From positions 824,001 through 888,000 of the forward strand of contig NZ_CP089924.1 in the NCBI RefSeq assembly GCF_021284765.1: 64,000 bases of DNA, in the 5' to 3' direction. A program made the position numbers and the translations under genes. The notes under the pieces are model-generated. The model had not been told where the DNA came from. It did not search any database and worked only from the letters and a program-made list of their open reading frames with translations. The stretch is from Lysobacter sp. 5GHs7-4 (GTDB taxonomy: Bacteria; Pseudomonadota; Gammaproteobacteria; Xanthomonadales; Xanthomonadaceae). Within the stretch, counting starts at the first letter, position 1. Every line of letters begins with the position of its first letter. Shown one piece after another: positions 416 to 48,955 of the stretch.

Positions 416-1864
416 CTACGGCGTTTTATCCGCTTTAGCCCGTTCCGCAAGCCGATGCGCCTTGTCGTACAACACCTTCGCCCGCTTCGCATCGCCCTTG
501 GCCGCGTATGCCTCGGCCAGGCTGTCCCAAGTGTTGGGCGAGTCCGGAAACAACGTCGTGTTGAGCTCGAAGACGTACAACGCGGGATCGATGCCAAGAT
601 TCTCGCGAATGGAATAACCCGCCGTGTTGACCGCGCGTTCCAACTCCGCATCGTCGAGCGCGCGCTGGGCGCGTAGCGATCGGGCTTGCGCTCGCGCGTC
701 TCCCGGCGCCGGCGCCTTCAACGCGTAGCCCACCAGCGTTTCGGATAGCGCCTCCGCCGGGAACCGATCCGGCGCCACCACCGCCATCGCGCTGCCCACC
801 AGCACGCGCGACCAGACGTTGCGCACGCTGCCGTTGGTCAGGTACGCGAACACGTAGACGTCCTCGTCCAGCGAATCCCGAAACAGCACGCGCACCCGCA
901 CGCGCGTGCCGCCGTCATGGCCGACTTGCCGATACTCGCCGCTCTCGCCGTACTCCCAACCGGCGGCGAACCCGCCGCGCCGTCCGTTGCTCAGCGTGCG
1001 GGGCTGCCAGAGCCGGCGCAGCGTGGCCTTAGTCACCAGTTCGCCCGAGGTCACCGCCTGCAGGAACCGGGCGAGGTCGTCCAGCGTGAGATACAGCGCG
1101 GCATGGCCATAGGCGTAGCGGGGCCAGGCGATGTCCTGTTCCGGTTCCAGGCGCCCGTTCTTGCCGACATAACTGCGCACCACGCGCTGTTCCGACCGCG
1201 CGGCCGGGCCCCACCCGGTATGGCCCAGTTGCAGCTTGCGCACGATGCGTTCTTCGGCGATCTGCGCGTACGGCTTGCCGTAGTGGGCCTCCAACAGCGC
1301 GGTCAGCACCAGGAAGTTGGTCTGCGTATAGCGCGTGTCGGTGCCGGTCGGGAACGACAGCGGCGTATCGGCCAGCGACACGAACACCGCAGGCAAATCC
1401 TTGGGGAAGTCCGTGGTCGCCAGGGCGCCCCCGTCCGGTCTGGCGATGAAGTACTCCGGCACCCCCGAGGTGTGATCCAGGAAGTCGCGTACCGCGATGG
1501 TCCGCCAAGACGCAGGCAGGCCGGGCACGTAGGTGCTGGCCGGTCGGTCCAGATCCACCCGGCCCTGTTCGACCAACTGCATCACCAGGATGCCGGCGAA
1601 CAGCTTGCTCAAGGAGTAGGCCGCGAACACATGATCGGCGGTCGCCCGTTCGTGGCGCTCCACATCCGCCTCGCCGTCCGCGCCGCGGAACAGCACCTGC
1701 CCATCGTGCGCCACCAACAGTGCCTGGCCGGCGATGCCGTAGCGCTGCCGATTGGTCTCCAACTGCCGCGTCAGCGCCGCAGACAGCGCGTCATCGGCCA
1801 GGGCCGAGCCCGGCAGCAGCAGTGTAAGCCCGAACAACAGCGCCATGGTCTGCCTGAAGATCAT
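416..1864 (-). CDS. Serine hydrolase of the beta-lactamase family (class C / AmpC-like)
   Basis: A 482-residue exported protein. The start is the ATG at 1864, preceded by GGGAGACGG; it gives a clean signal peptide ending ALA-DD near residue 23. The frame is open further upstream but that stretch looks non-coding. The fold motifs are SLSK (residues 84-87, SxxK nucleophile and base), YTQTN (179-183, YxN) and HDGG (316-319, in place of KTG). The C-terminal 60 residues look like a single TPR helix pair. Family members are esterases, D-aminopeptidases or penicillin-binding-like hydrolases of the periplasm; the substrate cannot be read from the sequence. Confidence 0.88.
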   Translation of the reverse strand: MIFRQTMALLFGLTLLLPGSALADDALSAALTRQLETNRQRYGIAGQALLVAHDGQVLFRGADGEADVERHERATADHVFAAYSLSKLFAGILVMQLVEQGRVDLDRPASTYVPGLPASWRTIAVRDFLDHTSGVPEYFIARPDGGALATTDFPKDLPAVFVSLADTPLSFPTGTDTRYTQTNFLVLTALLEAHYGKPYAQIAEERIVRKLQLGHTGWGPAARSEQRVVRSYVGKNGRLEPEQDIAWPRYAYGHAALYLTLDDLARFLQAVTSGELVTKATLRRLWQPRTLSNGRRGGFAAGWEYGESGEYRQVGHDGGTRVRVRVLFRDSLDEDVYVFAYLTNGSVRNVWSRVLVGSAMAVVAPDRFPAEALSETLVGYALKAPAPGDARAQARSLRAQRALDDAELERAVNTAGYSIRENLGIDPALYVFELNTTLFPDSPNTWDSLAEAYAAKGDAKRAKVLYDKAHRLAERAKADKTP

Positions 1865-2100
1865 TCCGTCTCCCAAAGTCGTAAGGCGTCCTGGGCGCAG
1901 CGCCGGCCTCGCCGCGCGCGGCACCGGCGCCGTAGCGGGCGTTAGCTTGCCCGATGCGCCGCGGGTTTCCGTACTTGGCGGCCACCGGTTCGGCGCATCG
2001 GGCCAGGCCGGTCGGTGGCCATGGTCCGGCCCGGGTAGATGAATTCGGCCCCATTCTTTGGATACATTGAGCGCTACGTTGATCCTCTGGGGGGAGGGAT

Positions 2101-3537
2101 ATGGGGAAGGCTCGGGCGATAGTGGGCGCATGCGCGGCGCTGGCCGCGTGTTCGATGGGCATGTATTCGATGGGCGCAGCCGCCGGCGAGAAGGCGCCGT
2201 ATCCGGATACCGGCGTGCAACTGGGCACGGGCTGGCATTCGACGCGCTTGCTCAAGACCAACGAGAACTGCGTGGTGGCGAGCCAGGCGGAAGACAAATC
2301 CGAAAAACGCACGCAGCGTTTCGAGGAGTTCACCGACACCGGCTCGTTCATGTCGTCCCTGTCGATGTCCGCCAAGGCCAAGGCCAGCTGGATCATCGGC
2401 GCTTCGGGGTCCGCCAGCGGCTCGCTGCTGCGCACCTACAAGATGGACATGAACTCCTTGAACATCAGCGTCGACCTGCGCATCGCGCGCGGCGCGACCT
2501 ACCTGGTCCCCAAGGACGAAGGCCCCGAGCAGGGCAATGCGATCCGCCTGCACAGCGCGCTGGTGCAACTGGCGGAGAAGAATCCCATCGAGTTCCGCCG
2601 CCGCTGCGGCGACGCCTTCGTGTCATCGATCTTCCTGCAATCGGGCATCCAGGGCGTGTATTCGTTCTATACGCGCACCCAGACCGAACGCAACGAGGTC
2701 AAGGGCAAGATGGCCGGCGCCTACGGCCTGTTCAGCGCCTCCGCGTCGGCCAAGCAGATCCTCGACAAGATGAGCAAGGAAGGGCGCTTGTCGATCCACT
2801 ACACGCAGTTGGGCGGCACCGGCACCCGCGTGGCCACCACCGAGGGCGAGTTGCGCGAGCTGGTGAAGGAACTGGGCACCGTCGCCGAGGGCGCCGCGCC
2901 GGTGGAAATCGGCATCACCTATTACTCCGAGCTGCCGAATTTCCCGCAGTCCCAGAACGCCGTGGATCAGGACATCGGCCTGATCGCCGATCAGTACCTC
3001 CGCCTGGAGGCCCTGATCAACGCCATGAACGACATGCGCCAGAACCGCTACGGCTACGGCCTGTTCGAAGCGGCCGACCTGCGCCGGATCGAACTGCTGC
3101 AAGACAGCGCCATCGCCCAGTACGACCGCCTCAAGAACACGCTGCAGCAATGCATACCGAACGACCGCGACTGCGTGTATCCGGCGGACCTCCCACGCGA
3201 CGACTACGACATCCGCGCCCAACTGCCCGTGCGCATGATCGATATCCCGGACGCGGAGACGGCGCTGAACCAGCAGGACCAGGTGATGCAGCAAATGGGC
3301 GCGCTGGCCCAGCTTCCCAGCACGCCCGCCCGTGAGTACCAAATGCGCACCTTGGAAAACCAACTGGCGCAGCTGCGGCGCCAGCGCCAGCAGGTCGTAC
3401 TGGATACCCGGTTCCGCATCTGGATCGAAGAGCCGTCGATCGCGCGCTGCAACCTGGGCGAAACCGCGCAATGCCTGAGCGTGCAGCGCCGCGACGAACT
3501 GCGCCTGCGCTACTTCAACCAGACCTTCGGCGGCTAA
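2101..3537 (+). CDS. Exported lipoprotein with a MACPF-like pattern
   Basis: A 478-residue protein starting at the ATG after a GGGGGGAGGG ribosome binding site. The signal sequence ends in a good lipobox (LAAC, Cys17), so a lipid anchor is likely. Residues 80-110 are rich in small and Ser residues. Residues 169-240 run CGDAFVSS, an alternating strand segment, then a Ser/Ala-rich amphipathic stretch ending in GG. This order resembles the core of membrane attack complex/perforin proteins (YGTHF-like strand, GG, then TMH2). Residues 330-450 are charged and helical. Membership of the MACPF/CDC superfamily is inference from the pattern. The gene ends 4 bp inside the convergent HExxH gene. Confidence 0.75.
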   Translation: MGKARAIVGACAALAACSMGMYSMGAAAGEKAPYPDTGVQLGTGWHSTRLLKTNENCVVASQAEDKSEKRTQRFEEFTDTGSFMSSLSMSAKAKASWIIGASGSASGSLLRTYKMDMNSLNISVDLRIARGATYLVPKDEGPEQGNAIRLHSALVQLAEKNPIEFRRRCGDAFVSSIFLQSGIQGVYSFYTRTQTERNEVKGKMAGAYGLFSASASAKQILDKMSKEGRLSIHYTQLGGTGTRVATTEGELRELVKELGTVAEGAAPVEIGITYYSELPNFPQSQNAVDQDIGLIADQYLRLEALINAMNDMRQNRYGYGLFEAADLRRIELLQDSAIAQYDRLKNTLQQCIPNDRDCVYPADLPRDDYDIRAQLPVRMIDIPDAETALNQQDQVMQQMGALAQLPSTPAREYQMRTLENQLAQLRRQRQQVVLDTRFRIWIEEPSIARCNLGETAQCLSVQRRDELRLRYFNQTFGG

Positions 3538-39205: not shown

Positions 39206-41911
39206 ATGAACCAGCCGCTTGCCAGCTCCCTGCACGACCTGCTCCAGAACGACCCGGACCCCACCGAAACCCAGGAATGGGTCGAATCCGTCCAGGCCGT
39301 CATCGCCCGCGACGGCGCCGAACGCGCCCATCAGTTGCTCGAAGGCATGGTCGAGGTGACCCGCCGCGCCGGCGCCCACCTGCCGTTCCAGCCCACCACC
39401 GAATACATCAACACCATCCCGCCGCACCTGGAGGCCAAAAGCCCCGGCGACGCCGCGATGGAATGGCGCATCCGCTCGCTGATCCGCTGGAACGCTATGG
39501 CCATGGTCGTGCGCGCCAACCGCAAGCCCGGCGACCTGGGCGGCCACATCGCCAGCTTCGCCTCGGCGGCCACCCTGTACGACGTGGGCTTCAACCACTT
39601 CTGGCGCGCCCCCTCCGCCGACCACCCCGGCGACCTCATCGGCGTGCAGGGCCACAGCTCGCCCGGCATCTACGCGCGCTCCTTCCTGGAAGGCCGCATC
39701 AGCGAATCGCAGATCGACCACTTCCGCATGGAAGTCGACGGCCGCGGCGTCAGCTCCTACCCGCACCCCTGGCTGATGCCGGACTACTGGCAGATCCCCA
39801 CCGTCTCCATGGGCCTGGGCCCGATCAGCGCCATCTACCAGGCCCGCAACTGGAAGTACCTGGAAGGCCGCGGCCTGATGCCCAAGTCCGACCGCAAGGT
39901 CTGGGCCTTCCTGGGCGACGGCGAAACCGACGAACCCGAATCCCTGGGCGCCATCTCCGTCGCCGGCCGCGAAGGCCTCGACAACCTGGTCTTCGTCATC
40001 AACTGCAACCTGCAGCGCCTGGACGGCCCCGTCCGTGGCAACGGCAAGATCATCCAGGAACTGGAAGGCCAGTTCCGCGGCGCCGGCTGGAACGTCATCA
40101 AGAACATCTGGGGCAGCTACTGGGATCCGCTGCTCGCGCGCGACACCACCGGTCGCTTGCGCCAGTTGATGATGGAAACCGTCGACGGCGAATACCAGAA
40201 CTGCAAAGCCTTCGGCGGCAAGTACACCCGCGACAACTTCTTCGGCAAATACCCCGAAACCGCCGCCCTGGTCGCCAACCTGTCCGACGACGACATCTGG
40301 CGCCTCAACCGCGGCGGCCACGACCCGCACAAGGTCTACGCCGCGTATCACGAAGCCGTGAACACCAAGGGCATGCCCACCGTCATCCTGGCCAAGACGG
40401 TCAAGGGCTACGGCATGGGCGCCTCGGGCGAGTCGCTCAACCCGACCCACGGCACCAAGAAGATGGACGACGAAGCCGTCCGTCTGTTCCGCGACCGCTT
40501 CAACATCCCCGTCAGCGACGACCAGCTCAAGGACGGCGCCGTCCCCTTCTTCCACCCCGGCGACAAATCCCCGGAAGTGGAATACATGCACGAGCGCCGC
40601 AAGACCCTGGGCGGCTACCTCCCGCAGCGCCGCCGCAAGGCCAGCACCTCGCTGGAAGTGCCCAAGCTGGAAGCCTACGACCGCCTGCTCAAGAGCACCG
40701 GCGAGCGCGAAATCAGCACCACCATGTCCTTCGTGCAGGCCCTCAACATCGCCCTGCGCGACAAGCAGGTCGGCCCGCGCCTGGTGCCCATCGTCGCCGA
40801 CGAAGCCCGCACCTTCGGCATGGAAGGCCTGTTCCGTCAGCTCGGCATCTACGCCCCGCACGGCCAGAAGTACAAGCCGGTCGACCGCGACCAGCTGATG
40901 TACTACCGCGAAGACACCACCGGCCAGGTCCTGGAAGAAGGCATCACCGAAGCCGGCGCGTTCGCGTCCTGGCTGGCGGCCGCCACCAGCTACAGCACCA
41001 ACGACCTGCAGATGCTGCCGCTGTACATCTACTACTCCATGTTCGGCTTCCAGCGCATCGGCGACAGCGCCTGGCAGGCGGCGGACATGCGCGCGCGCGG
41101 CTTCCTGCTGGGCGCCACCGCCGGCCGCACCACCCTCAACGGCGAAGGCCTGCAGCACGAAGACGGCCACAGCATGGTCCAGGCCGGCCTGATCCCGAAC
41201 TGCCGCAGCTACGACCCCACCTTCAGCTACGAGGTCGTCACCCTGCTGCAGCACGGCATGCAGCGCATGCTGACCGAACAACAGGATGAGTACTGGTACC
41301 TCACCCTGATGAACGAAAACTACACCCACCCGGACATGCCCGAGGGCAGCGCCGAGGGGATCATCAAGGGCATGTACCTGCTCACCGACGCCGGCAAACC
41401 CAAGAAGGGCGAACTGCGCGTGCAACTGCTGGGCAGCGGCACCATCCTGCGCGAAGCCATCGCCGCCGCCGAGCTATTGGACAAGGACTTCGGCGTCACC
41501 GCCGACATCTGGTCCTGCCCCAGCTTCAACGAACTCGCCCGCGACGCCACCGACTGCGAACGCTGGAACCGCTTCAACCCCGAGGCCAAGACGCCGCGTA
41601 AGCCCTACATCACCCAGCTGCTGGAAGGCCGCCAGGGCCCGGCGATCGCCGCCACCGACTACATTCGTGTGTATCCGGAGCAGGTGCGGGCTTACGTGCC
41701 GATGCGCTACACCGTGCTGGGCACCGACGGCTTCGGCCGCAGCGACACCCGCGCCAACCTGCGCCGCCACTTCGAAGTCGACCGCTACTACATCGCCCAC
41801 GCGGCCATCGCGGCGTTGGCGGCGGAAGGCAAGATGACGGGGAAGGATGTGGCGCGGGCGATCAAGCAGTACAAGATTGATAGTGAGAAGCCGAATCCGA
41901 TTGGGGTTTAA
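39206..41911 (+). CDS. aceE: Pyruvate dehydrogenase E1 component (homodimeric type)
   Basis: A 901-residue protein. GDGETDEPES (near residue 237) with NLVFVINCNLQRLDGPV about 25 residues on is the thiamine diphosphate/Mg2+ motif. HSSPGIYARSFLEGR, DEARTFGMEGLFRQ and EGLQHEDGHS are conserved AceE segments. It decarboxylates pyruvate and passes the acetyl group to lipoyl-E2. Length matches the E. coli enzyme (887). It stands alone here, with its own terminator and no aceF behind it, so E2/E3 are elsewhere. Confidence 0.97.
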   Translation: MNQPLASSLHDLLQNDPDPTETQEWVESVQAVIARDGAERAHQLLEGMVEVTRRAGAHLPFQPTTEYINTIPPHLEAKSPGDAAMEWRIRSLIRWNAMAMVVRANRKPGDLGGHIASFASAATLYDVGFNHFWRAPSADHPGDLIGVQGHSSPGIYARSFLEGRISESQIDHFRMEVDGRGVSSYPHPWLMPDYWQIPTVSMGLGPISAIYQARNWKYLEGRGLMPKSDRKVWAFLGDGETDEPESLGAISVAGREGLDNLVFVINCNLQRLDGPVRGNGKIIQELEGQFRGAGWNVIKNIWGSYWDPLLARDTTGRLRQLMMETVDGEYQNCKAFGGKYTRDNFFGKYPETAALVANLSDDDIWRLNRGGHDPHKVYAAYHEAVNTKGMPTVILAKTVKGYGMGASGESLNPTHGTKKMDDEAVRLFRDRFNIPVSDDQLKDGAVPFFHPGDKSPEVEYMHERRKTLGGYLPQRRRKASTSLEVPKLEAYDRLLKSTGEREISTTMSFVQALNIALRDKQVGPRLVPIVADEARTFGMEGLFRQLGIYAPHGQKYKPVDRDQLMYYREDTTGQVLEEGITEAGAFASWLAAATSYSTNDLQMLPLYIYYSMFGFQRIGDSAWQAADMRARGFLLGATAGRTTLNGEGLQHEDGHSMVQAGLIPNCRSYDPTFSYEVVTLLQHGMQRMLTEQQDEYWYLTLMNENYTHPDMPEGSAEGIIKGMYLLTDAGKPKKGELRVQLLGSGTILREAIAAAELLDKDFGVTADIWSCPSFNELARDATDCERWNRFNPEAKTPRKPYITQLLEGRQGPAIAATDYIRVYPEQVRAYVPMRYTVLGTDGFGRSDTRANLRRHFEVDRYYIAHAAIAALAAEGKMTGKDVARAIKQYKIDSEKPNPIGV

Positions 41912-41921
41912 TCAATATGGA

Positions 41922-41958
41922 CAAGAAGGGCAGCCTACAAGGCTGCCCTTCTTGTTTG
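41922..41958 (+). terminator. Rho-independent terminator of aceE
   Basis: A perfect 14-bp stem CAAGAAGGGCAGCC / GGCTGCCCTTCTTG with a TACAA loop followed by TTTG, 10 bp after the aceE stop. It also marks the left edge of the low-GC island. Confidence 0.93.
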
Positions 41959-42014
41959 TGCTTGTTTGTGGGGCGTACAACGGATGCATTTAGGAGTGCA
42001 GGGGGCACTCAAGC

Positions 42015-42698
42015 ATGGATCAAGATCAGCGGAAGGAATATCGCGACTACGCATGGAACTATTTTTCTGTCCACGCCGCTCAACGGATGAGCGTCTTCCA
42101 GTTCTTCATCACTCTTGCGACGGCAATAATTGGTGGTGCGGTGCTGATTGCGGGCAGTGCCGATGATCGAAAATGGGCGGCGCTGCTGTTCTTAGCGCTG
42201 CCATTCCTGTCGTTCATCTTCTGGCGTTTGGATTTACGAACAAGCTCGCTCGTTAAGAATGCGGAGGATGCGCTTAAGTTTCTCGATAGCGAGGTCGCAT
42301 TCCGTCTCAAGAATGGGCTCCCCCCAGAGCTCGCGTTGTTCGCAAGAGACGACACGATAGTTGCTGATAAGGCTGAGGCAAGGCTATTGCGCGGGCACTT
42401 CTCCTACAGTCGGAGCTTTCGTTACGTGTTCGTTGCGGTCGCACTGCTTGGAATCGTAGGCGCTTCTGTTGTCCTAATTTCTCCAATGCCTCGGAGCAAG
42501 AAAGAGAGGAGTGACGTGATAACGGTTGTCGCGTGTCATGAGCCCCATGCTTCGAAGGGGGCGCTGTCGAGATCGATCGAAGAGAGTGGGCGAACTAGGA
42601 TCGAATTGGACAGTGGTGTTCCGTTCACCATTAGTGCAAATCAGGCTGTGGGGTTGGACAGCACAGTTAAGGAGGACGAGCGTGATGACGCCAAGTGA
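42015..42698 (+). CDS. Membrane protein, SLATT-like candidate effector
   Basis: A 227-residue protein. After a short helical start (YFSVHAAQRMSVFQFF), two hydrophobic helices (about 28-48 and 53-70) end in FWRLDLRTSSLVKNAEDALK. A third helix lies near 140-160, followed by an acidic soluble tail. A YF..HA.QR...F helix leading into a two-helix hairpin and a charged helix recalls SLATT-type membrane effectors associated with nucleotide-sensing genes, but this is resemblance only. It overlaps the next gene by 14 bp, implying coupled expression. GC is well below the core genome. Confidence 0.7.
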   Translation: MDQDQRKEYRDYAWNYFSVHAAQRMSVFQFFITLATAIIGGAVLIAGSADDRKWAALLFLALPFLSFIFWRLDLRTSSLVKNAEDALKFLDSEVAFRLKNGLPPELALFARDDTIVADKAEARLLRGHFSYSRSFRYVFVAVALLGIVGASVVLISPMPRSKKERSDVITVVACHEPHASKGALSRSIEESGRTRIELDSGVPFTISANQAVGLDSTVKEDERDDAK

Positions 42699-44088
42699 TC
42701 TACGTGAAAAGTATGCGGTGTTCAACGCAGTTGGCGGCGGAATAGAATCCCTGCTATGGGAAACGGCAGGTGAGTTTGTATGTAACAGGCTGATTGGGAT
42801 CGAGAATGATCACCTGTCGAAGGTTCAGCTGAATCAGCTTCTCGGGTTCAAAGAAGAAAGGGCCGTATCTGACGACTTCTTCAAGTATTACTGGATCGAT
42901 GAGCCTGACCTTCCTTATAAGCTACTGAGCATCCCGGGCTATGACACTTCGTATAAGAACTACGAGAACATCAAGTCAATAGAGCAGTTCTTCTATGGCC
43001 TGGCACGGATCTTTGTAGATGGGCTTCTTCACTTTGGGAATGTGCGCCAGTTCTATCGTCAGTACTGCAGCAAGGCCCGCTCAGATATTGACGCTCTAGT
43101 GAGATCGCAGATGTTTAACACGGATGTAATTAAGCAGAGAGGTCCGTCTCTGCCGCTCAAGGCGATACCAAAGGACGATAGATACCTAATCTCAGAAATG
43201 GCCTGCAAATCCTACGGGGACGCCCCTGCGACGGCTGGTGATCTTAAGGACGCATTGCTCGATGCATGGAAAGATCATGCTGAGAGAGGTGGCGGCCGGG
43301 TCGCCGTCAAGACATTGATCGCCGGAGGAATGGGGCACACTCAGCAACAGCAAAGAATGTTTGAGTTCTCTGCGGATGACATCTTGGAGACAAGTGTGTC
43401 TTCGGAGACTGAGCTGAGCGCCCTCTATTCGAGGGTTGCAGAGAAGTTCATTTCGGCAAGAGATGCCGCCTTGGAGAACACCAAGCTCTATTTGTCGCTA
43501 GTGAATGATCTAGATGTATATGTGGCGACGAGCATGAGAACACGGTCCGACTTCAGGAGCATGGCAGACCAATGCTCAGAGATATTTGGAGATGAGAAGG
43601 TCAAGGATCTGCACCTTCGCTACTTTGACCCGACACTAAGCGCTGCTGACGGGCACCAGGACAAGGGATTAATTGAGTGTCTAATGGTCAAATGCGCAAA
43701 GGTGCTTGTGTACTGTGCGGGAGAGAAGGAGAGCTACGGAAAGGATGCAGAGGCTGCGATGGCGCTGAGCTTGGGTAAGCCAGTGATCTTTCTCTGCAAT
43801 GAGCAGACGCGCATGGAGTTCTATAAGGAAATTCACCCGCTCTCACGGCTTATTAATTTCAGCACGGGTGTGGCTGTCGGAGCGATCGTCACGTCCAGTG
43901 CGAAGCAAGTTTCGGAATTGCTTGATCGAATCTTCGAAAATGAAATGGAATACGAACTTATTCAACCATTGGGTCGGCAAGGGTATTTACAGCTGCGCGA
44001 GAGAATGTCTGGGTCGATTGTGCGAATACAAACCAACAACTCTCTTCTGTCAGAAGCATTCTGGAACTACTACAGAAGTAATAACTAA
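42685..44088 (+). CDS. Protein with SLOG / nucleoside deoxyribosyltransferase-like domain
   Basis: A 467-residue protein from the ATG at 42685, nine bases after AAGGAGG. Residues 1-270 are mostly helical with no known motif. Residues 276-430 form a Rossmann-like domain: DVYVATSMR (strand 1 and loop), RYFDPTLSAADGHQDKG, KVLVYCAGEKES, and KDAEAAMALSLGKPVIFL. The last is the E-x(7)-GKPV signature shared by deoxyribosyltransferase-, TIR- and SLOG-type folds that bind or cleave nucleotides (Glu355). Paired with the overlapping membrane gene, it may sense or make a nucleotide signal that gates a pore. Both roles are inference. Confidence 0.72.
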   Translation: MTPSDLREKYAVFNAVGGGIESLLWETAGEFVCNRLIGIENDHLSKVQLNQLLGFKEERAVSDDFFKYYWIDEPDLPYKLLSIPGYDTSYKNYENIKSIEQFFYGLARIFVDGLLHFGNVRQFYRQYCSKARSDIDALVRSQMFNTDVIKQRGPSLPLKAIPKDDRYLISEMACKSYGDAPATAGDLKDALLDAWKDHAERGGGRVAVKTLIAGGMGHTQQQQRMFEFSADDILETSVSSETELSALYSRVAEKFISARDAALENTKLYLSLVNDLDVYVATSMRTRSDFRSMADQCSEIFGDEKVKDLHLRYFDPTLSAADGHQDKGLIECLMVKCAKVLVYCAGEKESYGKDAEAAMALSLGKPVIFLCNEQTRMEFYKEIHPLSRLINFSTGVAVGAIVTSSAKQVSELLDRIFENEMEYELIQPLGRQGYLQLRERMSGSIVRIQTNNSLLSEAFWNYYRSNN

Positions 44089-44174
44089 ACGCCAGGCGCC
44101 GCCTCGAGTGAGGAGTCGATCTGATTGGCGGCAGCGAAGTCCCATTGGCTAGAGATGGTAGGTGTGGAGCGGAC

Positions 44175-46307
44175 GTGATCAAGATCCTATCTAACCGTGA
44201 TGATGTTGCCAGGTACGTTTCGGATGTTCGCGCAGCCTCAGATGCCAATCGCAATGCGCTTGGATTTTTGCCATCTGCGGTATTTGATGACTACGCTGCA
44301 AGAGGCAAACTATTGGTTGCAGTGAGCTCTTCAGGCGCCTATGCCGGGCATCTTCTATTTGATAGGAAGTTCCCACGTGCAACAGTCCTGCAAATGTTCT
44401 GTTCTGCAGCGTCTCGTCGCAATGGGGTTGCAACTGCCCTGTTGGAAGAGCTTAAGGGAGGACTCACCAATGACGGATTTCTGTCGATAAAGGCCAGCGT
44501 TGCAGAAGATCTCACAGAGTCGAATCGCTTCTGGGAGCGTCAACGGTTCTTCATAAAGGAGCGAAAACTCGGTGGGATTACCACCGGGAGAAAGATTCTC
44601 GTAAGGATTCACGAGCTCGACACTCCACAGCTGTTCGCGAGAAGTGGCCTCACGGTGTCTGGCAGCGATTCACTAGGCCTTGGCTCAATGGCCGCAATGG
44701 TCGCTCCAATGTATCTCTTAGACCTTAATGTTGTTTTTGATGTGAGCCGTCGGAGATCTGAGCATGAAGCAGCTGCGAGGCTGCTCCATGCTTCCCACAG
44801 GGGCGAATGCCGTCTGGCAATTAGTGGCGAAATGGCTGTCGAGCTAGGTCGCGCCCGGCCTCACGCGAAGGATGACCCGATGATCGGCCTGATCGAGGCC
44901 CTTCCAAAGGTCCGGCTCCCTCAAAGAAAAGAAGCGGTAAAGATTGAACAAGACCTTGCTAGCATCATCTTTCCAGAGAAAGTCTATCCATCGGGCCTGT
45001 CCGCAAATGACCTGTCGGACATAAGGCATATTTCCACCGTTGCCTTGAATGGCTTGTCTGGATTTATCACTAGAGATGGCCGATTGCTGGCGGCTGCAAA
45101 TCAAATCCGATCCAAGTTCGGAATTCTAGTCGCCCCTCCGACGGAATTTGTGACTCCAGCATGGTCTGATTCATCGGGCGAGTTTGAGGCCGGTGGTTAC
45201 GGAAGATTGGAACTGCTCCCGATGCACGAACAAACCTATGAGCCGGCTAGGGAGTTACTACAGTCATGTGGATTGAGACCATCGGAAATCGTTAGCGACT
45301 GGTTGCCAGGAGACCTTGCGCAGCAATCGCAGGTGTCCTTGGTGGTACGAGACGCCGAGTCTGTAGTCGGATACGTGTCTTGGTCACGAAACGACTACAG
45401 CGCAAACAATGTGCGTATTCGAGCGGTGGTTGATGAGTCTCATCCGCAAGCTATTGGAATCGCGCAGATGACGCTTGGAAGGGCTGTTGAACTGGCCAGG
45501 CGGCCGGGCTTTACAACATTTCTGCTCGATACTCCTGCGCGTCAAGTTAGCATGCGAGAAGTTGCTCACGGAGTTGGTTACAGAGCGACCGACTTGCCCC
45601 ATAGATTGGCAAAGATTTCGGCTGGTTGCGTTGTAACACCTGACTCGTGGAGCGAGTTTCATAAGCGGCTGTCCGGTGTAGGAATTCGTCTACCCGACAG
45701 TCCTCCAAGGTGGGAGGGGCATGCGCAGCTAATCGAGATCCATTGCCCAGACGGTGAGCGGCGGTTTGTGCGCCTTGATGCATTTGAAACACTGCTTTCT
45801 CCGCTGATCATGTGTGTCAGTGGTCGGCCTGCGGTGATAGTTCCGATTCAGCATAGATATGCAGTTCCGCTTCTTGGCCACTCTAAGCAGCTCTCGCTGG
45901 CGCCGAAGCTTCGCGCTGAAAGATCGCACGAACGCATCTATCTCGGAGATCCCCGTGCGCTTGGGCGGTTTGAGACTGGCGGCGTAGCGCTCTTCTATGA
46001 ATCTGGAAGTGAAGGCGAGCAAGCGGTGGTTGCTGCCGCGCGAATAGTCGATTCGTATCTCATCCAGGGAGACGAGATCAGTGAAGAATCCCTGGAGAAG
46101 TCAGTTCTGACTCAGAATAATCTTCGCGAAATTGGTAAGTCGCGAGATAAGGCCGCGTGCCTTTTTGACAATATTGTTGTACTTCCGCGCCCGGTCGGCT
46201 TGTCCTTCCTTCGAGAGCTTGGGTACGGTGAGCAGAAACTCATCACAACGAATAGGGTTTCGCCAGAGCAGCTCTCGGCGATCCTGTGCAGGGGCTTTAA
46301 TGGTTAG
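44175..46307 (+). CDS. Four-module GNAT-PIN-GNAT-PUA-like protein
   Basis: A 710-residue protein; the GTG at 44175 is preferred (GGAG five bases ahead) to the TTG at 44145. Residues about 30-140 look like a GNAT acetyltransferase (SRRNGVATALLEEL is the acetyl-CoA loop). Residues 180-330 look like a PIN nuclease: LLDLNVVFD, GEMAVELGRA, then DLSDIRHISTVALNG and ITRDGRLL give the acidic set. Residues 395-490 are a second GNAT-like unit, and 600-700 resemble an ASCH/EVE (PUA-like) beta barrel (GDPRALGRFETGGVALFYESG). Such fusions suggest a toxin-antitoxin or RNA-targeting defence protein. It overlaps the ASCH gene by 8 bp. Confidence 0.75.
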   Translation: MIKILSNRDDVARYVSDVRAASDANRNALGFLPSAVFDDYAARGKLLVAVSSSGAYAGHLLFDRKFPRATVLQMFCSAASRRNGVATALLEELKGGLTNDGFLSIKASVAEDLTESNRFWERQRFFIKERKLGGITTGRKILVRIHELDTPQLFARSGLTVSGSDSLGLGSMAAMVAPMYLLDLNVVFDVSRRRSEHEAAARLLHASHRGECRLAISGEMAVELGRARPHAKDDPMIGLIEALPKVRLPQRKEAVKIEQDLASIIFPEKVYPSGLSANDLSDIRHISTVALNGLSGFITRDGRLLAAANQIRSKFGILVAPPTEFVTPAWSDSSGEFEAGGYGRLELLPMHEQTYEPARELLQSCGLRPSEIVSDWLPGDLAQQSQVSLVVRDAESVVGYVSWSRNDYSANNVRIRAVVDESHPQAIGIAQMTLGRAVELARRPGFTTFLLDTPARQVSMREVAHGVGYRATDLPHRLAKISAGCVVTPDSWSEFHKRLSGVGIRLPDSPPRWEGHAQLIEIHCPDGERRFVRLDAFETLLSPLIMCVSGRPAVIVPIQHRYAVPLLGHSKQLSLAPKLRAERSHERIYLGDPRALGRFETGGVALFYESGSEGEQAVVAAARIVDSYLIQGDEISEESLEKSVLTQNNLREIGKSRDKAACLFDNIVVLPRPVGLSFLRELGYGEQKLITTNRVSPEQLSAILCRGFNG

Positions 46308-46731
46308 TCAGAATATTCTAATTTCGCTTGAGCCGCGCCATGCAGAAAGCATTTTGTCGGGTCGAAAGAGCTTTGAGCTAAGACGCCGCGCAATGCGAGT
46401 AGAGCCTGGCGTCGTGGTGTGGATGTACGCGAAGGTGCCAAAGGCGCAGATCGTAGGATATGCGACAGTGGCTGATTTGCATGTGGGGTCGCCGGCATCG
46501 CTGTGGCGGCGATTTAGTAAGAAGGTGGGCATTTCAAGGAAGGAGTTCTTTGAATATTTTGCTGAGTCGCCTTCGGCGTTCGCGATGGAGCTGAAGAGGA
46601 CGGCTCGTTTGAAGACACCTTTATCTCTGAGCGAGTTGCGCGAAGTAGAGGCTGGATTTCAACCTCCACAGTTCTTTAAGCGACTTAGTAGTGACGCGCA
46701 AGTGTTCAGGACGATGTCTGAGCACGTATAG
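46300..46731 (+). CDS. ASCH domain protein
   Basis: A 143-residue protein. ILISLEPRHAESILSGRKSFELRRR is the ASCH/PUA-like opening (the conserved Lys followed by ELR and basic residues), and VVVWMYAKVPKAQIVGYATV is the central barrel strand pair. ASCH domains bind RNA or modified nucleosides and recur beside GNAT and PIN genes. Its ATG lies inside the end of the preceding gene, and its stop (TAG) overlaps the AGGAG site of the AbiH gene, so the three are probably one operon. Confidence 0.82.
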   Translation: MVSQNILISLEPRHAESILSGRKSFELRRRAMRVEPGVVVWMYAKVPKAQIVGYATVADLHVGSPASLWRRFSKKVGISRKEFFEYFAESPSAFAMELKRTARLKTPLSLSELREVEAGFQPPQFFKRLSSDAQVFRTMSEHV

Positions 46732-46739
46732 GAGTCCAT

Positions 46740-47684
46740 ATGGTACGGTTGTATGTCATCGGCAATGGTTTTGATCTCCACCACAGGATTCCATCGAGCT
46801 ACTCGGCGTTCGGCGAGTACTTGCAGGCTGTCGACCCAGACGCCTTCGAGAACGTAGAGAAGTACCTGTATCTAGAATCTAATGATGCGGGTTCAGCGAG
46901 GAGGTTCTGGGCGAACTTCGAACAGGCACTTGCGGATTTTGGTCCCGATGACGTGATCGAAGATGCGTCCCAGTTTCTTGTGTCTTATGCGGCAGAGGAC
47001 TGGTCTGATTCAGGTCACCACGACTACCAATATGAGATTGAGCGTGTAGTTACATCGCTATCGACGAACCTGAAGGCCCGATTCTCCGAATGGATAAAGA
47101 CTCTGCCGATACCCGATGCGCCACCGATAAGGACGGCGTTAGCCATAGATACACGAGCGCTCTTCTTAAGCTTCAACTACACGGTGACTCTCTCTAAGGC
47201 CTACGGCGTACCGCCAGACCGAATTGTCTATATTCATGGGTGCGCAGATTCTGGCGAGAACCTAGTGCTTGGCCACGGCTGGAATCCGGTAACTAAGGAT
47301 TCGCTTAATAAGAATGTAGATCCAGAATTAATAGATACTCGTGAGCTTCAAGGCAACGAAATTCTAGATGAGTACTTTGAGCTAACGTACAAGCCCGCCG
47401 AGAAAGTTATCGCAAACTGGCGTGCCTTCTTTGATGGGCTAATTGACGTAGATGAGGTTTACATCCTCGGTCACTCTATGTCTGAAGTAGACATGCCGTA
47501 CCTTTTTGAACTGGCGAGAAATGTATCATCTGCCGCGACTTGGGTGGTGAGCTACTACGGGGAAGATGAAAAGTTTCTAAGAGCCGAAACAATGAAGAAA
47601 CTTGGAATCCAGTCGTACGATTTGATTGAACTAAGTTCGCTGGCACTCCCGGTGCAAATCATTGATCCCAGCATGGAGGGATAG
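46740..47684 (+). CDS. AbiH-family abortive infection protein
   Basis: A 314-residue protein. LYVIGNGFDLHHRIPSSYSAF at the start is the AbiH signature (nucleotide-binding-like strand and loop), FLSFNYTVTLSKAYG near 140 is the second conserved block, and YIHG near 162 and LGHSMSEVDMPY near 245 follow. AbiH proteins block phage growth at the cost of the cell in Lactococcus; the mechanism is not well known. It is last in the low-GC island. The ATG is eight bases after AGGAG. Confidence 0.86.
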   Translation: MVRLYVIGNGFDLHHRIPSSYSAFGEYLQAVDPDAFENVEKYLYLESNDAGSARRFWANFEQALADFGPDDVIEDASQFLVSYAAEDWSDSGHHDYQYEIERVVTSLSTNLKARFSEWIKTLPIPDAPPIRTALAIDTRALFLSFNYTVTLSKAYGVPPDRIVYIHGCADSGENLVLGHGWNPVTKDSLNKNVDPELIDTRELQGNEILDEYFELTYKPAEKVIANWRAFFDGLIDVDEVYILGHSMSEVDMPYLFELARNVSSAATWVVSYYGEDEKFLRAETMKKLGIQSYDLIELSSLALPVQIIDPSMEG

Positions 47685-47921
47685 CAGGAGCCAGGATCGT
47701 CTTTCGCTGAGTGTGGTCGCATCTCGCAAAAATGTGGTCAGGTTCGTTTGCGCTCCATTGCCCCGAGCGATTGCATTGACCGTAGCGGCCTAGGCATGGG
47801 CACGGCTCTTGTGCTTCCGCTTAGCCCCGAGACACCATGCCCGAGGACGACTGCCATCGGTTCGGGCGCCCGGTTCCGCAGGCAGCCCCGTTCCTCGATC
47901 GGCGATGCATAAGGACATTGC

Positions 47922-48078
47922 ATGAATCTCAGGCTCTTGTCCGGCGCTTTCGCGGTGGGCGCTGCTGCTCATCGCCTTCAGCCATTCGCAACCTACGCTC
48001 GTCGCGCAGGATTGGTCGATGATGGGGTGGAACTTCCAAGTCATCTCCAACGTGGCCAAGAATAGGCGTGGGAGTTGA
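47922..48078 (+). pseudogene. Broken 5' copy of the LamG-domain gene
   Basis: From 47922 the DNA parallels the start of the intact gene at 51680. The translation shifts frame after about 18 codons and then reads SQPTLVAQDWSMMGWNFQV, matching SQPTPVVQGWSVAGWNFQA, until a stop at 48078. Only about 150 bp survive. It lies at the right border of the island, so the island or a deletion probably removed the rest. Confidence 0.7.
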
Positions 48079-48225
48079 CTTTCTGGATTTTCCAGTTGTG
48101 GTCGAAATGGGTCGGGCGGCAGAGATTTTATTGGTTTCGAATCTAATGCGCGTACTTTCTGCTCAGTTCTGGGCATGGCCATTTGCGCGATTTGTTAGCT
48201 TTCGGTATCGTAAGATCAAGGTTAG

Positions 48226-48231
48226 TATAAT
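48226..48231 (+). promoter_or_regulatory. Possible -10 box (TATAAT)
   Basis: A consensus TATAAT in a strongly AT-rich pocket, about 135 bp ahead of the small gene at 48366 and just upstream of the tandem palindromes. No good -35 box is seen at the right distance. Confidence 0.35.
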
Positions 48232-48241
48232 GTCCTGGTAG

Positions 48242-48271
48242 TTACGTTTAACGTAATTACGATAATCGTAA
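48242..48271. promoter_or_regulatory. Two adjoining 15-bp palindromes, candidate operator
   Basis: TTACGTTTAACGTAA (48242-48256) is followed without a gap by TTACGATAATCGTAA (48257-48271). Both have arms TTACG / CGTAA around five bases. A further half site CGTAA lies near 48210. This is the form of a repressor site bound by two dimers side by side. The regulator is not identified. Confidence 0.6.
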
Positions 48272-48365
48272 TTGACGACGATTTATTTTATTAAGATCCT
48301 TCTGTTGTGCCGCTTCGGCTTTTGTGTCGAGGCACTGTTCTGCAGGTCAACAAGAAGGAACTGGT

Positions 48366-48626
48366 ATGAGCAAGGAATTGCCTCAAGACATAGCGGTTAT
48401 TGGTTTCAATAGGTACGAAACTGCAATCCACACTGCCAACTTGTCCTCCGCGCAGTCTTATGCGCGAGCCAGAGGCCTACCGCTGGCCTACTTCTACGCG
48501 GATACGCAGGTGATGGCCGAGGCCATCGTGACGTTCTGGCTGCTCAACCAGACCGAGCAGCGCAAAGTGCTGGCGGACCTCAAGAAGCGGGTATTCACCG
48601 AGCCGAAGAAGCCCACCAAGGGCTGA
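48366..48626 (+). CDS. Small hypothetical protein
   Basis: An 86-residue soluble protein, with AAGGAA seven bases before the ATG. The sequence has strand-then-helix character (IAVIGFNRYETA; SSAQSYARARGLPLAYFYAD) and a basic tail. It probably belongs to the transcript controlled by the tandem palindromes upstream. The start after an AT-rich leader of several hundred bases suggests tight regulation. No family is recognised. Confidence 0.58.
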   Translation: MSKELPQDIAVIGFNRYETAIHTANLSSAQSYARARGLPLAYFYADTQVMAEAIVTFWLLNQTEQRKVLADLKKRVFTEPKKPTKG

Positions 48627-48769
48627 GCCGGCGCGGGAAGTTGGCGTGGGGTAGGGCGGGCGGCCGAGAACCGTGGTGCTGGCGCCTCGCTAGCCCTGCG
48701 AGGTGGTAGCGGAAGGCTTCGGATACATCGGCCTGCGCTACAAACTCGCAGCCCAGCGGCCTAAACGCG

Positions 48770-48955
48770 GTCGCGTGCCGGTCGGGACTCGTCGCTTGCC
48801 CTCCAGCGGCGGTCGCGTGCCCGTCGGAACCGGTCGCTTGCGCTCCAAAGCCGGTCCGATCCCCGTTTGAACTCGTCGCTTGCCCGTAGAAGCCGGTCGT
48901 GTGCGGTTCCGGACCGCATCGCTGTCCAGAAAACGAGCAGCGATGCCCATACAAC
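48770..48955. repeat. Degenerate tandem repeat, about 20-25 bp units
   Basis: Variants of GGTCGCGTGCC / GTCGGxACTCGTCGCTTGCC recur about eight times with substitutions. On the minus strand the frame gives a Gly/Ala/Thr-rich iteration (GxxATxxDGxATxxGGQAT) but with no credible start or context. It occupies most of the gap between the small gene at 48366 and the minus-strand gene ending at 49079; nothing else is seen in the gap. Confidence 0.55.

Follow-up and report, generated by a model that had tools for sequence, protein, structure and literature searches.

A GNAT-PIN-GNAT-EVE-like effector with an overlapping ASCH gene in Lysobacter looks like a variant of the (PIN)-GNAT-EVE/ASCH kind

The window analysed here, a stretch of 64,000 nucleotides from Lysobacter sp. 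5GHs7-4 (NZ_CP089924.1, positions 824,001 to 888,000), carries a plus-strand gene pair made up of a four-domain effector gene (44175..46307; 710 aa, GTG start at 44175) and an ASCH-domain partner gene (46300..46731; 143 aa). From the N terminus, the effector contains a first GNAT domain (GNAT 1; residues 1–150, 44175..44624), a PIN domain (residues 179–327, 44709..45155), a second GNAT domain (GNAT 2; residues 335–487, 45177..45635) and an EVE-like barrel of the PUA superfamily (residues 519–710, 45729..46304). The partner has a ZmASCH-like fold, and its start overlaps the effector stop by 8 bp. A ribosome-binding-type sequence lies five bases ahead of both starts. An earlier sequence-only reading of this DNA had proposed the GNAT-PIN-GNAT-barrel order in a single 710-residue chain and the 8 bp overlap with the ASCH gene, and our analysis confirms both.

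A four-row alignment, used through two peptide patterns and so missing divergent members, was run against the genomes of 84,980 species and gave 22 loci (given L numbers below), 20 of them full-length. Further homologues were found on two viral contigs, in genomes (L003 and L006) and on one Caulobacter plasmid. L027, which is cut by its contig, and L028, a GNAT match only, were dropped, and L003, whose protein is identical to that of Pseudoxanthomonas L007, was counted with the latter, leaving 24 distinct full-length homologues besides the window's protein. Their hosts are alpha-, beta- and gammaproteobacteria, a Verrucomicrobia metagenome-assembled genome, two viral contigs and one plasmid. 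The four-domain order, with an ASCH open reading frame (ORF) directly downstream, is found in all 24 (22 of 22, plus L006 and L002). An open ASCH start that overlaps the effector stop, taking any start in frame, is likewise present at 24 of 24 listed loci, the window included. Because all 24 other homologues keep the order and the overlapping ASCH gene, the architecture is not a product of chance. The two proteins also co-vary (Mantel r 0.945 over 24 loci, a value reached in 0 of 5000 permutations), and in a tree a branch (95/93) separates the 25 ASCH partners from eight ASCH proteins of classic operons, a split that carries a long-branch warning; L003, being identical to L007, was omitted from both analyses. 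L058, reached through its ASCH gene, is related only in part and was kept out of the count. L004, from a genome of the same taxonomic order, encodes at 1426–3444 a divergent GNAT-PIN-like relative of 672 aa, and this locus stops 0.4 kb after the gene.

The effector is rare. Counting its own genome, it has matches in 3 of 398 phylum genomes and in 4 of 149 relatives, two of the latter weak. A relative is carried by one of 72,556 plasmids, and none was found among 50,697 phage records or in a first viral scan with the single window protein as query. A profile (A4) matched 65 of 252 class genomes; among the matches listed, the window gene aside, a single one falls outside the GNAT 1 part, and the rest resemble ordinary GNATs.

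The sequence-only reading had further described the system as undescribed, and this was an overstatement: the three C-terminal domains and the ASCH partner are those of the (PIN)-GNAT-EVE/ASCH operons. Bell et al. 2020, following the earlier work of Iyer et al., predicted these operons, which often include an AAA_17 ATPase, to be toxin-antitoxin systems, and no module of them had been experimentally characterised at that time (PMC7641849; this source, like PMC11514479, PMC12839542 and PMC6972931, is cited from excerpts). PADLOC lists the effector and ASCH proteins of the PIN-GNAT-EVE kind as PDC-M11A and PDC-M11B, PDC meaning phage defence candidate (PMC11514479). In our comparison, effector residues 179–707 are collinear with four classic PIN-GNAT-EVE proteins (hhalign, probability 99.2, E 3e-19), the end of the effector matches PDC-M11A (E 4.4e-7; the best stretch covers profile positions 321–476 of 486), and the ASCH protein matches PDC-M11B (E 1e-29). 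The four-domain and the classic form thus share PIN, GNAT and EVE domains in one chain and in the same order, together with an ASCH partner of the same family. That PDC-M11A is covered by a third, and that Pfam EVE matches only three of the 25 four-domain members, suggests that current profiles miss part of the kind.

The two forms also differ. The four-domain form has an extra N-terminal GNAT with a kept loop, whereas the classic members compared (11: L031–L034 and L059–L065) begin with PIN, leaving aside L059, which runs off its contig and is not judgeable. An ASCH gene lies beside or is fused to 8 of these 11, the upstream side of the remaining loci not having been searched. One of them, L032 (1234–3150), encodes a single 638-aa PIN-GNAT-EVE-ASCH chain in which effector and partner are fused, and this fusion fits a direct complex. 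In a tblastn search with four classic AAA_17 ATPases, an ATPase gene was found at 0 of 26 four-domain loci (the window and both L003 and L007 included, some of the loci short) and at seven of nine classic loci, the queries coming from four of these nine; L062, which is cut, and L065, which is broken, were left out. The ATPase gene is frequent in the kind but not required. The text of Bell et al. 2020 (PMC7641849) nowhere uses 'GNAT-PIN', 'two GNAT' or 'N-terminal GNAT', and no four-domain member was found in the excerpted literature on PIN-GNAT, PDC-M11 and GNAT-EVE/ASCH (including PMC7641849 and PMC12839542). Judged from these sequence comparisons, the gene pair looks like a distinct four-domain variant of the already described (PIN)-GNAT-EVE/ASCH (PDC-M11) kind.

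We examined which catalytic residues the 25 members keep. The acidic tetrad of the PIN domain is present, with D183, E219, E223 and D282 kept in 25 of 25, and position 301 (D301 in the window's protein) is Asp or Glu in every member; Pfam PIN_3 matches 12 of them and Pfam PIN four. GNAT 1 has both a GNAT fold (RimI/NatA-like in a fold search with the predicted model) and the acetyl-CoA loop [RQK]-x-x-G-x-[GA] at residues 81–86. Counted by aligned columns, all three consensus positions of this loop (81/84/86) are present in 17 of 25 members and two or more in 23; for GNAT 2 (425/428/430) the same counts are 2 and 6. An unaligned count of the motif (16/25 versus 6/25) was set aside, as it can match out of register. 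The two GNAT modules proposed earlier therefore fare differently, the cofactor loop being kept in the first but not kept across the family in the second, and GNAT 2 looks degenerate at the family level. On its own, GNAT 2 is placed correctly on the PIN-GNAT-EVE profile, but with a probability of only 1.7.

In the classic proteins, by contrast, the internal loop is conserved as G-x-K-[ILV]-G-E in 11 of 11, a form that would fail the strict consensus count because K stands where the consensus has G. A simple reading of this difference is that the added GNAT may have taken over the catalytic role from the internal one, and the retention of the loop in the added but not the internal domain suggests that one acetyl-CoA-binding domain in the chain suffices. 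The two GNAT 2 loops that do fit the consensus are those of L029 and of the window's own protein (Q425, G428, A430), and the latter counts against calling the shift settled. Bell et al. suggest a clean-up function for PIN-GNAT-EVE, in which the PIN domain would degrade toxic acetylated aminoacyl-tRNAs made by GNAT-EVE proteins (PMC7641849). The kept PIN acids would suit such a function; an extra GNAT that retains its acetyl-CoA loop would be odd in a pure clean-up enzyme, and two copies of the pair are on viral contigs themselves, so that we give this explanation little chance.

The ASCH partner showed no DNA-binding domain in a sequence and domain scan of its 143 residues. The nearest studied ASCH protein, ZmASCH of Zymomonas mobilis (PDB 5guq), cuts single-stranded RNA but not single-stranded DNA (PMC5615036); the deposited name of entry 5guq is helix-turn-helix protein, and we did not find the genomic partner of ZmASCH. 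Among the 25 partners, the ZmASCH test residue Tyr47 is kept in all, whereas Lys53 and Ser128 are kept in none, Lys53 being replaced by Ala or Gly and Ser128 by Phe, Val or Thr. A ZmASCH-like nuclease partner is unsupported on this count. We also considered E. coli YqfB, an ASCH amidohydrolase for N4-acetylcytidine with the catalytic residue Thr24 (PMC6972931). By spacing alone, and not by residue-level alignment, the Lys and Arg of the YqfB triad Lys21/Thr24/Arg26 are found in 25 of 25 partners, and Glu stands at the spacing of Thr24 in all 25. Deacetylation by the partner is therefore unlikely, and a writer/eraser pair with a YqfB-like deacetylase is disfavoured.

Structural matches of the ASCH model include the human TRIP4 ASCH domain with double-stranded DNA, as might be expected of a DNA-level system in which a GNAT acetylates a DNA base and the EVE and ASCH domains read the modified DNA. 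DNA-base acetylation was put forward by Iyer et al. for GNAT-EVE proteins, as relayed by Bell et al., who present EVE and ASCH as domains that read modified bases and report fusions of ASCH to HsdS and to HTH domains (PMC7641849). The conserved pair, however, includes no methylase or restriction gene, and the cleavage preference of ZmASCH points to RNA. PIN toxins, too, act on RNA, and we regard a DNA target as improbable.

The pair lies in a low-GC island (41960–48360) with a GC content of 0.519, compared with 0.676 before and 0.663 after it. The island is bounded on the left by aceE (an NCBIfam equivalog) and on the right by an 86-aa ORF (48366..48626, plus strand) that has no match in Pfam, PHROG or NCBIfam. 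Although aceE is present in 19 of 19 congeners (genomes given G numbers), no effector protein match was found anywhere in these genomes, and no DNA match to 41960–47800 behind their aceE genes. Seventeen of the 19 have a homologue of the 86-aa ORF about 2.9–8.0 kb past aceE, behind cargo DNA with a GC content of 0.447–0.572 (at most 0.519 in 16 of the 17); of the other two, G014 is without low-GC cargo right behind aceE and G007 has some. A housekeeping RNA modification or quality-control enzyme, for which the RimI/NatA-like fold of GNAT 1 would speak, is hard to square with this low GC, with the very patchy spread of the family and with the missing protein and DNA matches in the congeners; already disfavoured, it is the least likely of the explanations weighed here.

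The cargo behind aceE varies between congener genomes. We scanned 43 of its 79 low-GC ORFs, with families reported per pool and not per protein. The matches listed include four C5 DNA methylases, three IrrE peptidases, two GmrSD, LmuB of Lamassu (1e-115), ABC-3C, a D12 methylase, DUF4411 and a reverse transcriptase, besides a 5'-nucleotidase and a putative O-methyltransferase; weak NCBIfam matches to the MzaB, PtuA and MAD3 ATPases were all below cut-offs. Such cargo makes the 3' end of aceE look like a hot spot for defence genes, and this location is the strongest argument that the window pair serves in defence. The spot spans 41911–48366 in the window and is represented by L086–L104 in the congeners. 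In two congeners the true aceE 3' end is followed, after a stretch of other DNA, by a partial second copy: 103 bp at 83% in L086 (G014) and about 290 bp at 88% in L097 (G019). It is as if insertions use and regenerate the aceE 3' end.

Elsewhere, the L029 pair sits among phage primase, repressor, tail and tape-measure genes, in a phage that is probably P2-like by its gpD, and the L030 pair is near a serine integrase. In the flanks of 21 other loci, 162 ORFs were listed and 139 scanned (shorter ones were left out), again with families per pool, and the matches listed for these 139 ORFs include mads8 in three, mads3 in two, and single DRT, IetA, IetS and DrmD-type matches. The outputs of the two ORF scans list 25 of 121, 140, 28 and 251 families.

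The domain order, the PIN acids, the GNAT 1 loop, the ASCH coupling and the defence-type spot, drawn from sequence and models, are the basis for the interpretation we tentatively favour, with confidence a little short of even: the pair may be a horizontally moved two-gene system, an RNA-targeting, growth-arresting toxin or defence effector restrained by its ASCH protein. The RNA-targeting toxin or defence role put forward in the sequence-only reading is thus plausible. We infer that the EVE-like barrel and GNAT 2 would dock an RNA substrate, most likely tRNA, that GNAT 1 would acetylate the docked RNA or its charged amino acid, and that the PIN domain would cleave it. Release of the module, as might happen when a phage infects, would then halt translation. 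The ASCH protein, which is made from the overlapping start and is apparently homologous to the effector's own barrel, would restrain the effector, either through direct binding or through competition for the RNA that both recognise. The effector resembles the GNAT toxins TacT, AtaT and ItaT in its RimI-like GNAT and the VapC-type toxins in its PIN domain with acidic residues. RimI-like GNAT toxins modify charged tRNA by acetylation and VapC PINs cleave tRNA, and binding of modified RNA is a property of PUA-type domains. Presumably unlike these toxins, the effector unites both modules and a base-reading-type barrel in a single chain, and its partner is an ASCH protein and not, as we take theirs to be, a DNA-binding antitoxin.

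Several observations weigh against this interpretation. The fold-search matches of the effector model span the GNAT 1 part only, and the PIN part on its own, searched as a profile against the PDB, gave four chance matches and no PIN structure. At the position of the usual GNAT general-acid tyrosine, which we assign from RimI, GNAT 1 has Trp in 17 of 25 members (the window's included) and Tyr in eight, so its catalysis is not certain. GNAT 2 may not be dead in the window's own protein and cannot be called so, because its loop residues (425–430) fit the consensus. Two of the three mutation-tested ZmASCH residues are not kept in the partners, and tRNA as the target would follow by analogy to the GNAT and VapC toxins. 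Among the matches listed for the flanks of the other loci, defence families are scattered beside ordinary metabolic genes, and in the literature we found no toxicity or defence test of the kind.

A plain toxin-antitoxin addiction pair would need no dedicated phage role: the effector would be the toxin and ASCH the antitoxin, kept because its loss harms the cell. The tight overlapping pair, PIN and GNAT as toxin building blocks and the patchy spread would all fit, and Bell et al. file the family under toxin-antitoxin (PMC7641849). The aceE spot and the phage-borne copy, however, fit defence at least as well. The effector gene also comes first here, before a partner on which no DNA-binding domain was seen, an arrangement from which most type II pairs differ, and we consider a simple addiction pair possible but rather unlikely. 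A one-chain restriction-modification system at the RNA level can also be imagined, in which GNAT 1 would write an acetyl mark on host RNA or tRNA, the EVE-like barrel, GNAT 2 and ASCH would read it, and PIN would cleave RNA lacking (or carrying) the mark, destroying phage-altered or phage-encoded tRNA; this strikes us as even less likely than the clean-up function. The pair is a compact two-gene variant, with no ATPase gene found, of a kind predicted since at least 2020, and the GNAT 1 loop, the PIN acids and deletion of ASCH offer clean mutants.

The island holds five plus-strand genes: the conserved pair, two genes upstream and one downstream. The downstream neighbour, an AbiH gene (46740..47684), had been noted in the sequence-only reading; it does share the island and strand, and stands outside the conserved pair. 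Directly upstream of the effector, a 227-aa membrane protein gene (Pfam 8xMP; 42015..42698) overlaps the gene for a 467-aa protein (42685..44088) one end of which is weakly SLOG/nucleoside-deoxyribosyltransferase-like, below Pfam cut-offs; this overlapping pair (42015–44088) may be a separate two-gene module. P0002 had no match among plasmids. A perfect, terminator-like 16-bp inverted repeat (41921..41955, plus strand) after aceE marks the left edge of the island, and three 42-bp tandem repeats (64–100% identity) lie just past the island at 48767–48892.
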